Shown here: positions 1 to 38,027 of the stretch, in pieces | Layout: each line of letters opens with the position of its first letter | Numbering within the stretch: the stretch's first letter is position 1 | Source of the DNA: Lewinella sp. LCG006 | GTDB lineage: Bacteria; Bacteroidota; Bacteroidia; Chitinophagales; Saprospiraceae | Assembly: GCF_040784935.1 (NCBI RefSeq) | Contig: NZ_CP160680.1 | Coordinates: 5,995,802-6,059,801, forward strand | Direction of reading: 5' to 3' | Length of the DNA: 64,000 nt | The notes under the pieces: generated by a model | What the model was told of the DNA's origin: nothing | The model's database searches: none | What the model saw: only the letters and a program-made list of their open reading frames with translations | Translations under genes and position numbers: made by a program

Positions 1-829
1 TGGAAATAGTATAGTTACGGCTGAAGACACAATAGCTATTCGCTCCTTTTACGGACGTACCCATAATATGGTACCCTCTGTAATGCCTTATGCTCCATAT
101 GAGTTTATCCTCGAAGGTCCGTTATTTGTCAATCCTGGGGATTACGTAGAGTTCACTATCTCTGTAGGAACCCCAGAAGCCCCAGCGGAAGACCTTTATG
201 GCTTTGTCTTTCCTTTTGTGTACAACCCTGATGCCGTTCGGCCTTCCAGTGTTACGGTCAATTGGCACGACAATAATTTCCTGGCATATGATTCTCCGGT
301 ACTTTTCATGAATCACAATGATTTTAGTGGTCGTTTTGATGCGGGATATACCAGAACCAGTGGGCTGGTAGCCAGTGGTCATGGGGAATTAGGTACTTTA
401 GGGATTGTTATTGATGATATCCAAGGCTTCCGTAGCGAAGAAGAAGAAATATTGTTAACTTTTGGTGGTGAAACGGGTAGTAGCCTTGATCAGTTTGGAG
501 AGTACAATTCCGTTTACGTTCGTCCTTTCCAGGTCCGGGTAAGACTGCGGCCTGAAGATGAAACATTAACTCAAGCGTCATCGCTGGATGATTTGCTTAA
601 AACCTATCCTAACCCTACCAGCGAGTACTTAAACATTCACCTCAATGGGCAGCAAGCATTTGAGCAAATCACCCTACGCACAATGACAGGACAGGTTGTT
701 CATCATCAGGAAACCTCTGGTGTCAACCATGCTGTTCTAAGTGTAGCTGGTCTTACTCCGGGTATGTATATACTAAGTGTCACCAGCGATAAAGGAACGA
801 TCAACCGTAAGATTGAAATCTTGCGATAA
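1..829 (+). CDS. T9SS-sorted secreted protein with cohesin-like domain (5' partial)
   Basis: The frame is open from the first bases of the window, so the N-terminus lies upstream; the ATG at 68 is probably internal. The visible part starts with a beta-rich domain of about 130 residues. It resembles a cohesin fold: a PGDYVEFTISV strand, then LYGFVFPFVYNPDAV, then GELGTLGIVIDD. The last 80 residues are a type A T9SS C-terminal sorting domain, with YPNPTSEYLNIHL, a GQVV turn, LTPGMYILSV and a basic end. The protein should be exported by Sec, moved across the outer membrane by T9SS and attached to the surface or released. The ligand is unknown. The sorting domain is clear; the cohesin resemblance is by pattern only. 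Confidence 0.85.
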   Translation, partial: GNSIVTAEDTIAIRSFYGRTHNMVPSVMPYAPYEFILEGPLFVNPGDYVEFTISVGTPEAPAEDLYGFVFPFVYNPDAVRPSSVTVNWHDNNFLAYDSPVLFMNHNDFSGRFDAGYTRTSGLVASGHGELGTLGIVIDDIQGFRSEEEEILLTFGGETGSSLDQFGEYNSVYVRPFQVRVRLRPEDETLTQASSLDDLLKTYPNPTSEYLNIHLNGQQAFEQITLRTMTGQVVHHQETSGVNHAVLSVAGLTPGMYILSVTSDKGTINRKIEILR

Positions 830-830
830 G

Positions 831-956
831 TGACGGGATAAAAATAGCTGATCCCATTTTTGATTCGCTAAAATTTTCTAAGCAAGTGACTAAAAGGAAC
901 TTGCGTGAAAATATTTGCGAATCTTTGAAAAAAAATGGGATCAGTTATTTCCGTCA
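831..956 (+). repeat. 126-nt hairpin repeat, long copy A
   Basis: This imperfect palindrome begins TGACGG one base after the preceding stop codon and ends CCGTCA. The arms pair through TGATCCCATTTTT against its complement, then GATTCGC, then GCAAGT/ACTTGC, around a loop containing ACTAAAAGGA. The reverse complement of 32636-32760 aligns along the whole length, and 6306-6334 carries only the ends. Differences from the other long copy fall in pairs that keep the stem. It resembles a MITE or REP-like element; no transposase is visible nearby. Confidence 0.85.
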
Positions 957-1037
957 AACACTAAAGACATTCATTGCTTTTTATTTTATTATCTGGCCAG
1001 GGATGGCTAGATAGATTCGTGGAATTATTATCATTGC

Positions 1038-6281: not shown

Positions 6282-6305
6282 CGCGACTAATTTACATAAG
6301 TAATT

Positions 6306-6334
6306 TGACGGAACAAAGTTGTGTTATTCCGTCA
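6306..6334. repeat. Short copy C of the TGACGGAA hairpin repeat
   Basis: TGACGGAA and TTCCGTCA lie 13 nt apart, so this is the outer end of the hairpin repeat with its long middle missing. The flanks match copy B: GTAATT on the left and CTAA on the right. It lies in the yidC leader, 14 nt before the ATG. Confidence 0.75.
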
Positions 6335-6348
6335 CTAAGTTTCCATTC

Positions 6349-32625: not shown

Positions 32626-32635
32626 TAAGGTAATT

Positions 32636-32760
32636 TGACGGAAATAATTTATTCCATTTTTTCCAACGATTCGCGAATATTTTCACGCAAGCTCCTTTTA
32701 GTTGCTTGCTTAGAAAATTTTAGCGAATCAAAAATGGAATAAATTATTTTTGTTCCGTCA
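32636..32760 (-). repeat. 125-nt hairpin repeat, long copy B
   Basis: TGACGGAA and TTCCGTCA form the ends. Inside, pairing continues with ATAATTTATTCCATTTTT, GATTCGC and GCAAGC/GCTTGC. The reverse complement matches copy A (831-956) base for base except at paired stem positions and a few loop sites. On the minus strand it begins directly after the ychF stop codon TAG. It lies between ychF and rluE, both on the minus strand. Confidence 0.85.
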
Positions 32761-33858
32761 CTAAACGTTGAAGCGGAAGTGCATCACATCGCCATCATTT
32801 ACGACGTATTCTTTGCCTTCTACACTCAATTTTCCAGCTTCTTTAACTGCTTGTTCTGAACCGTATTTGACATAATCGTCATAAGCAATAACTTCCGCCC
32901 GAATGAAGCCTTTTTCGAAATCACTGTGAATCACACCAGCAGCACCAGGTGCTTTTGTGCCATTCACGATGGTCCAGGCACGTACTTCTTTAACGCCCGC
33001 CGTAAAGTAGGTGATCAGGTTCAGCAAAGCGTAAGCACCGCGAATAACCCGATTAACACCGGGTTCAGGAAGACCCATTTCGGCGATAAATTCGTCGCGT
33101 TCCTCCTTGGTCTCCAATTCAGCAATGTCTGCTTCAATGGCGGCCGAAATCAAGATAACTTCGGCATTCTCTTCAGCTACGGCAGCTTTGAAGCGTTCGG
33201 TATATTCATTGCCACTTTCTACGGAATCCATGTCTACATTACAAACATAGAGGATGGGCTTGGCGGTCAGCAACATCATTTCTTTGAGCAAAGCATAACC
33301 ATCTTCAGGTAAGGATACACTACGGGCAGGTTTTCCGCTTTCGAGGTGAGCCTGGATCATGTCTCCAATCTCAACGAATCGCTTGGCTTCTTTCTCGCCA
33401 CTTCTAGCGGCTTTGCGCAGCTTGTCTATGCGCTTTTCAACGGTCTCTAAATCTTTAAAAATCAGCTCCGTATCGATGATTTCCTTGTCGCGAACTGGGT
33501 CGATGTTGCCATCAACGTGGACGATATTGTCGTCATCAAAACAACGGACAACGTGGATGATGGCATCCACCTCACGGATGTTACCCAGGAATTGGTTGCC
33601 CAAACCTTCGCCTTTACTCGCGCCTTTGATCAGACCAGCAATATCAACAATGTCTACATTGGTAGGCAAAATCCGCTGAGGATTCACAAACTCCGCCAGC
33701 TTGTCCAAGCGTGGATCGGGTACGGTGATGACCCCCACATTGGGTTCCTTGGTTGCAAAAGGATAATTAGCCGCCAACGCTTTCGCGGAGGTCAAGGCGT
33801 TGAAGAGGGTAGATTTTCCTACGTTGGGCAAGCCCACAATACCACACTGAAGTCCCAT
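32761..33858 (-). CDS. ychF: Redox-regulated ATPase YchF
   Basis: A 365-aa Obg-related P-loop protein that prefers ATP. GIVGLPNVGKSTLFNALT is the P-loop, then DIVDIAGLIKGASKGEGLGNQFL (shown in part) the switch region, and YVCNVD stands in the place of NKxD, which explains the ATP preference. The C-terminal TGS-like domain has RAWTIVNGTKAPGAAGVIHS and ends GDVMHFRFNV. It binds the ribosome and takes part in translation and stress response. Length and motifs are standard. The stop codon TAG abuts hairpin repeat copy B. Confidence 0.97.
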   Translation of the reverse strand: MGLQCGIVGLPNVGKSTLFNALTSAKALAANYPFATKEPNVGVITVPDPRLDKLAEFVNPQRILPTNVDIVDIAGLIKGASKGEGLGNQFLGNIREVDAIIHVVRCFDDDNIVHVDGNIDPVRDKEIIDTELIFKDLETVEKRIDKLRKAARSGEKEAKRFVEIGDMIQAHLESGKPARSVSLPEDGYALLKEMMLLTAKPILYVCNVDMDSVESGNEYTERFKAAVAEENAEVILISAAIEADIAELETKEERDEFIAEMGLPEPGVNRVIRGAYALLNLITYFTAGVKEVRAWTIVNGTKAPGAAGVIHSDFEKGFIRAEVIAYDDYVKYGSEQAVKEAGKLSVEGKEYVVNDGDVMHFRFNV

Positions 33859-37710: not shown

Positions 37711-37718
37711 TATCTTTG
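37711..37718 (+). promoter_or_regulatory. -7 box (TATCTTTG) of the B12 locus
   Basis: TATCTTTG lies directly upstream of the riboswitch, so transcription would start near 37724, just before its first stem. A TTTG at 37682-37685 is 25 nt away, a little far for a -33 box. Confidence 0.6.
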
Positions 37719-37733
37719 CCTTGCTTTACGGTA

Positions 37734-37894
37734 GCTGATGCCATGCATTAGCTTTAAAAGGGAATCCGGTGGAAATCCGGAGCAGTCCCCGCTGCTGTAA
37801 GCTTCGTTTAAAGCATTATTATTTATGCCACTGTTAACACGGGAAGGCAATAATGCACAGAAGTGAGCCAGAAGACCTGCCAGTAATGCATCAT
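37734..37894 (+). ncRNA. Cobalamin riboswitch
   Basis: The conserved core is plain: AAAAGGGAATCCGGTGGAAA, the box AGCAGTCCCCGCTGCTGTAA at 37781-37800, GCCACTG, GGGAAGGC, and GAAGTGAGCCAGAAGACCTG at 37860-37879. TGATGC...GCATTA at the start and TAATGCATCA at 37883-37892 form the closing stem P1. It binds adenosyl- or another cobalamin and should lower expression of the downstream TonB receptor. About 130 nt lie between it and the probable start codon. No T-run terminator is evident there, so control of translation is more likely. Confidence 0.97.
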
Positions 37895-38027
37895 AATTCT
37901 TCAAATCTTTCGGAGGAAAAGAAGGAGGAAATGCTAACCTTTACTGGTGTGCCCTTGCTATATCGTGAGGGTGATTACCCAGTATGCATTTTCCTTGTGT
38001 TTTTCTCCAAAGGGAAATGTCATCAAT

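Follow-up and report, generated by a model that had tools for sequence, protein, structure and literature searches.

A dispersed family of miniature transposable elements with a conserved hairpin fold in Lewinella sp. LCG006

The stretch of DNA analysed here, a window of 64 kb from the 7.5-Mb single-contig genome of Lewinella sp. LCG006, lies at a GC-skew switch taken as the replication terminus. It carries two full-length copies (A and B) of a hairpin element and one short derivative (C), all three flanked by the triplet TAA (Table 1). A cobalamin riboswitch is also present in the window, at 37713-37898 (Rfam RF00174, 111.6 bits). Comparison of the predicted folds with those of shuffled sequence gave z-scores of -12.15 for A, -10.38 for B and -4.20 for C. 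A covariance model run within the window, with a rough calibration and with A and B among its training sequences, returned B at 7e-35, A at 3e-31 and C at 3e-4, the next match standing at 0.0045 once opposite-strand echoes of A and B were set aside. An earlier sequence-only reading had aligned A and B end to end as one hairpin of about 126 nt; the hairpin is real, but its ends lie a few bases further out and its true length is 132 nt. The paired stem substitutions named in that reading as distinguishing A from B are present. The position of both copies downstream of a stop codon, in the same orientation, was also correctly described for A and B, but it is no rule among the 65 copies for which both neighbouring genes were called.

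Table 1. Features of the hairpin element; positions are those of the window unless a locus label is given.
Feature	Position	Strand	Basis
Full-length element A, type 1, 132 nt	830..961	+	ends G...C, fold, covariance-model match
Left target duplication TAA of A, stop codon of ORF 68-829	827..829	+	sequence, ORF
Right target duplication TAA of A	962..964	+	sequence
A: conserved internal loop, CTAA side	878..881	+	columns invariant in 37 A1 rows
A: conserved internal loop, GTG side	905..907	+	columns invariant in 37 A1 rows
A: apical loop, 11 nt, GACTAAAAGGA	888..898	+	
A: asymmetric bulge on 3' side	924..930	+	
Full-length element B, type 1, 132 nt	32630..32761	-	ends G...C, fold, covariance-model match
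B: target duplication TAA at left (5') end	32762..32764	+	
B: target duplication TAA at right (3') end, one extra G (32629) between	32626..32628	+	
Short derivative C, 36 nt, both ends and terminal helix only	6300..6335	-	
C: target duplication TAA, + strand left	6297..6299	+	
C: target duplication TAA, + strand right	6336..6338	+	
Copies with GC-rich palindrome CCTGCCTGC...GCAGGCAGG	L032, L043, L060, L036, L175, L201, L211, L252:19759-19918, L259:4017-4176		

A genome-wide search for further copies revealed a family far larger than A, B and the short copy. With A as BLAST query, the canonical strand of the element was recovered in at least 40 places at 86-100% identity (best 40 of 96 candidates), and the right-end pattern TTCCGTCAAATTAC, with one mismatch allowed, was found in 82 places against 2 for a control pattern. 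A covariance model, R1, gave 131 genome matches, opposite-strand echoes included; 74 canonical R1 copies, taken from among the matches listed, were used together with 19 short derivatives, making a set of 93. The short copies resemble internal deletions in which both ends are retained. An 800-kb sample of the genome, picked by position and lying half near the GC-skew switches, contained 14 canonical matches (18 less 4 echoes), which suggests approximately 130 copies genome-wide. Taken on these searches, the family appears to comprise about 100 or more copies of an element of about 131 nt.

The element has exact ends (G...C), and a target duplication of 3 bp, in most cases TAA or TTA, lies on either side. 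Among the 84 copies with GACGG-type ends, which formed the test set, the flanking 3-mers are identical in 65, whereas 27.0 were expected and the maximum in 10000 shuffles was 40. Flank identity reaches 79, 73 and 73 of 84 at the three positions of the duplication, compared with 22-50 of 84 at six other positions. There are 35 TAA/TAA and 22 TTA/TTA pairs, and further identical pairs are TAT, TTT, TTG, AAA and TAG; in the 24 copies without TAA or TTA on both sides, the 3-mers are identical in only 8. Moreover, a 132-nt type-1 copy is inserted within a TAA in the loop of a type-3 copy (L013), and an uninterrupted sibling of the host copy exists elsewhere (L093). Exact ends, a 3-bp duplication and a nested copy argue for a miniature transposable element rather than a gene for a 3' RNA, and the identification of A and B as copies of such an element can be regarded as secure at the level of sequence. 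The MITE-like nature suggested by the sequence-only reading is thereby upheld by the 65 identical flanks of 84, the nested copy and the high copy number, and the TAA target accounts for the adjacency of copies to stop codons.

Several copies have a composite structure. One locus (L098) is a mosaic in which the outer stem of one subfamily is joined to the inner loop of another, and at two others (L118, L208) IS elements have apparently inserted within hairpin copies. GC-rich palindromes of the form CCTGCCTGC...GCAGGCAGG occupy loops or junctions of many copies, bringing the hairpin to some 159-160 nt, and this second repeat family seems to land in hairpin copies. A module resembling GCGCCTGCCGCGCCACGCGG occupies a similar place in the stem, on the left arm in some copies and, inverted, on the right arm in others (L068 and L070 versus L061, L065 and L189), and the same is seen in another species. 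In genome G002, copies of a class of 116-121 nt neighbour each other on the same strand (L185, L173, L182); L185 holds three of them in tandem with a period of 121 bp, the two that were read being identical.

Conservation of the fold was examined in two alignments. A1 contains 37 of 44 rows, six near-duplicates and one reverse echo having been left out, and A3 contains 44 sequences from the own and other genera, hand-picked (14 of 24 outside loci) and without near-duplicates, odd-length copies and the 116-121 nt classes. In A1, 93.9% of cells pair, against 78.6% in shuffled alignments, both sides have changed in 30 of 49 pairs (shuffled mean 23.8), and the covariation score is 0.423, compared with 0.141 for shuffled and at most 0.144 for slid alignments. 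The corresponding figures for A3 are 86.0% against 65.5%, 44 of 49 pairs against 32.8, and 0.524 against 0.178 and at most 0.199, the covariation scores of both alignments being 2.9-3 times those of the shuffles. Substitutions are paired, and the strong compensatory change anticipated from A and B alone extends across the hairpin family.

Unpaired parts of the element are conserved as well. All 37 A1 rows have the same C-TAA / GT-G (CTAA/GTG) internal loop; also retained are the apical loop of 11 nt, for example GACTAAAAGGA, and, on the 3' side, a bulge of about 7 nt. Within the internal loop, A3 keeps both A of TAA as well as the GT at 90% or more; some rows depart, among them one that pairs there (L267) and two that read TGAA (L271, L282). 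The outer helix, which brings the two ends together, varies by class and is mostly still paired (TGACGG/CCGTCA, GAGC/GCTC, TAACGG/CCGTTA, GGGAC/GTCCC, GGGGC/GCCCC); it is shifted by about 5 nt from one element end to the other and is the weakest helix in A3, with 77.5% of cells paired and changes on both sides in 3 of 7 pairs. Selection for the folded form of the element can be considered secure on the strength of these alignments, and it seems to be the shape, not the letters, that counts.

The mispairs tolerated in the stems indicate which strand folds. In A1, with three poorly kept pairs left out of the counts, G-U occurs in 44 cells at 19 pairs, A-C in 5 cells at 4 pairs and other mispairs in 39 cells; removal of pair 8-121 leaves 35 G-U against 5 A-C cells. 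Single stem changes in 30 type-1 copies comprise 8 G-U, 1 A-C and 13 other cells, and no corresponding strand bias is seen at the unpaired sites of these copies (19 vs 23 cells), which makes mutation bias alone an unlikely source of the G-U excess. The ratio of G-U to A-C is weaker in A3, at 116 to 53. Compared with its complement, the canonical strand gives the better fold in 41 of the 44 A3 rows with RNA parameters (2 worse, 1 equal) and in 40 of 44 with DNA parameters. The canonical strand is therefore the predicted folding strand; since the alignment rows are related, the strand tests and the p-values overstate independence.

The GC skew of the genome switches near 2.32 and 6.03 Mb, half a genome apart, and these points were treated as the origin and the terminus. 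In 66 of 93 copies the canonical strand runs along the leading strand (p=6.5e-5, in one genome and by a test chosen after the strand pattern had been seen), and the canonical strand is thus the lagging-strand template. This count, which left out 10 of the 82 right-end places as IS-interrupted, split, doubtful or due to chance, stays at 64-68 of 93 under other replichore boundaries, and 22 of 38 control PF01609 genes lie along the leading strand. Copies between divergent or convergent genes follow the leading strand in 19 of 25 cases (p=0.015), as do 5 of 6 copies met later, all in one replichore. A simple ORF rule called both neighbours for 65 of the 74 copies, and gene context was assigned to these: 27 copies run sense and 13 antisense to both adjacent genes, 21 have divergent genes on their two sides and 4 have convergent ones. 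Between co-directional genes, sense prevails over antisense by 27 to 13 overall (p=0.038), by 21 to 6 where the genes are on the leading strand, and stands at 6 to 7 where they are on the lagging strand. Because orientation appears to follow replication at least as well as transcription, we infer that the fold likely acts as single-stranded DNA at the replication fork during mobilisation; the bias of 27 to 13 is what a role as RNA would also give. Several IS families likewise show replication-linked orientation, according to PMC5371812.

The covariance model detected the element in four of four genomes of the genus, and a BLAST search over 60 genomes placed it only in the genus, two matches of 29-32 nt in G033 being taken as chance. 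A survey of the family with the covariance model, in which the best 22 candidates were scored per genome and E-values are rough, identified 13 carriers among 150 genomes (E<=1e-5), own genome included. These carriers are the own genome (G000), G003 and 11 genomes in 10 other genera; two of the 11 (G019 and G021) were also among the 60 genomes of the BLAST search, without a match there, and G019 has a single weak model match. The single copy of G174 (L272) and a copy of G093 (L290) have identical flanks and share several neighbouring genes, so the two may not be independent; the genomes are labelled as different genera, and recent transfer, close kinship or mis-binning could be involved. An exact core match occurs in Phaeodactylibacter xiamenensis (order Saprospirales). 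In a sample of the phylum, none of 295 other genomes matched the model (E<=1e-6, best 11 candidates scored per genome), and plasmid records yielded no element match. One exact match to the right-end pattern in viral contigs had no model support and was taken as chance. As judged from these matches, the same shape is present in related genera while its stems have been rewritten.

No mobilising enzyme was found among the Y1, PF01609, PF13340 and PF13586 genes and the neighbour genes that were looked at. None of the 23 Y1 (RAYT-type) loci examined in carrier genomes (11 + 12, out of 53 Y1 matches there) has a copy within about 1.5 kb, and 14 Y1 loci of comparison genomes, also looked at, say little. 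Y1 genes occur in 15 of 15 carrier and 14 of 15 comparison genomes, and PF13586 in 4 of 15 genomes with the element and 4 of 15 without it, that is, with no co-occurrence; ten of the comparison genomes have zero model matches and five were judged by BLAST alone (four without a match and G033 with its two 29-32 nt matches treated as chance), so that 'without' is partly assumed. Comparison of six multi-copy PF01609 IS groups revealed none with a GNGACGG terminus. The motif GGGACGG does occur in one of the PF01609 groups (L140-L143), though only on the left and some bases in from the end; nothing in this group resembles the right end of the element. The one copy of an IS5-type (PF13340) element in the genome (L144) is flanked by TAA, as judged by eye, and ends in GAGCCTGTTT, unlike the hairpin element; PF13340 is present in two of the four genus genomes. 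With neither a matching terminus nor co-occurrence in the copies compared, PF01609, PF13340 and PF13586 transposases were set aside as candidates. Inspection by eye of the sequence close to the 82 right-end matches revealed no element carrying its own transposase. A PF13586 locus in another genus (L298) contains a truncated right half of an element, at a distance of about 300 bp from an IS whose ends differ, and is not regarded as an autonomous copy. Finally, 23 clusters of neighbour genes common to at least two genomes, inspected by eye from one sequence start per cluster, included none that looked like a mobiliser, and the largest cluster looks like a translation of the element itself.

We consider it fairly probable that A and B are non-autonomous miniature elements moved in trans and recognised as a folded single strand. 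An enzyme supplied in trans would move the element, and this enzyme, or a partner at the replication fork, would recognise the folded single strand exposed on the lagging-strand template. The object recognised would be the hairpin together with its internal and apical loops and the 3' bulge, which would account for stem letters drifting in pairs under a constant shape. The insertion step would act on TWA, often CTWAG, with a stagger of 3 bp, and the target duplication plus the leading G can leave a TAA or TAG intact, as seen by eye at A and B. The TAA/TTA target and the TAA or TAG left in place would together allow landing beside stop codons with little harm. The main rival is a conventional MITE mobilised by a DDE transposase, for instance of the IS5/IS1031 kind; its hairpin shape would have a role only once inserted, at the RNA level within host transcripts, or would be a by-product. 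This is possible but on balance unlikely. Transposases of the IS5/IS1031 kind make 3-bp TNA duplications, and the TWA duplication found here points to an ordinary double-strand, DDE-type transposase and argues against a single-strand route, for which, to our knowledge, a 3-bp duplication is unusual. The TAA flanks noted by eye at the IS5-type element of this genome agree with such a transposase, as does the replication-linked orientation of several IS families described in PMC5371812. The ends of that IS5-type element are different, however, the six PF01609 groups lack a GNGACGG terminus, and PF13586 is as frequent without the element as with it (the set 'without' being partly assumed). A DDE-type MITE also leaves unexplained the conserved loops and an outer helix that is shifted by about 5 nt between the element ends and varies from class to class.

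The other explanations are less probable. A REPIN-like element moved as a single-strand hairpin by a RAYT (Y1 transposase), as the sequence-only reading had proposed, would share with REPINs, as described in PMC3116915, a hairpin with compensatory changes and a single-strand logic, and Y1 genes do occur in all 15 carriers. They occur also in 14 of the 15 comparison genomes, and with no copy near any of the 23 carrier loci examined among 53 matches, a 3-bp target duplication, and an outer helix that itself differs between classes, this proposal now looks quite improbable. The suggestion that pairing reflects either selection on the fold or gene conversion within each copy stands in its former part. 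Copying within a palindrome, by template switching or hairpin mismatch repair, is a known mutational process, and the perfect outer arms of many copies are what it would produce; conversion alone leaves unexplained the unpaired CTAA/GTG kept in 37 of 37 A1 rows, the 3' bulge that has not been ironed out, the preference for G-U over A-C among tolerated mispairs and the persistence of imperfect inner stems; it may contribute, but is improbable as the whole source of the pairing. The spread, through recombination, of a structured regulatory RNA gene or of an element resembling a 3' terminator would fit the stop codons upstream of A and B and the sense bias of 27 to 13 between co-directional genes. 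Target duplications, the nested insertion and the presence of copies in all gene contexts, with 4 convergent against 21 divergent sites, make it very unlikely, and the adjacency to stop codons that had prompted the idea of a structured 3' RNA is explained by the TAA target. A search of Rfam at gathering score returned only the cobalamin riboswitch for the window and no match to the element, and eight loci gave 11 weaker matches, all below gathering scores, of which 8 are microRNA families.

Elements of comparable organisation are known in other bacteria. PMC2229807 describes MITEs of the ERIC, RUP and NEMIS type as intergenic imperfect palindromes of 100-200 bp with target duplications and long stem-loop transcripts, gives 127 bp for ERIC and lists in its Table 1 MITE families of which most end in 5'-TA-3'. 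The present family is like those, as there described, in being a small imperfect palindrome with a target duplication, and differs in that the duplication is of 3 bp, that stems and outer helix differ by class and genus while the architecture persists, and that orientation follows replication in one genome. REPINs, according to PMC3116915, are hairpin-forming replicative units with compensatory changes and a proposed single-strand intermediate. A hairpin with compensatory changes occurs here too, but no RAYT adjoins the copies at the examined loci, the target duplication is of 3 bp, an invariant terminal 16-mer is absent and the element is about 131 nt long with specific internal loops. For IS200/IS605, PMC5371812 describes single-strand hairpin recognition and an orientation linked to the lagging-strand template. 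The orientation of 66 of 93 copies in one genome recalls that description. We know of no IS200/IS605 transposon that duplicates its target, whereas the elements found here duplicate 3 bp and are too short for a transposase gene. Integron attC sites work alike in principle, with conservation of shape in place of sequence and folding of one strand; the attC core GTTRRRY/RYYYAAC is absent from the conserved A1 and A3 ends, and the present sites are dispersed and carry target duplications. IS5/IS1031 and PIF-like elements duplicate TWA at CTWAG-like targets, which resembles the TNA-type 3-bp duplication of the present copies (35 TAA/TAA and 22 TTA/TTA of 84), but the element ends differ and PF13586 does not co-occur. 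A literature search found no description of this hairpin family, which is not proof of absence.

It has long been suspected that palindromic repeats in bacteria are maintained for their fold, and sequence and fold are hard to separate within one species. In the family described here the fold is kept across genera while stems are rewritten, and loops, strand and replication orientation can all be read. A tentative further possibility is that these elements form a new mobile class recognised by folded shape, a single-strand hairpin at the replication fork with conserved internal and apical loops and an enzyme that makes 3-bp target duplications. If this were true, stems and even the terminal helix could be rewritten as long as pairing holds, and the element would diversify across a bacterial family. 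The family makes directly testable the question of whether letters, RNA shape or single-strand DNA shape are selected, and points to a mobilising enzyme.
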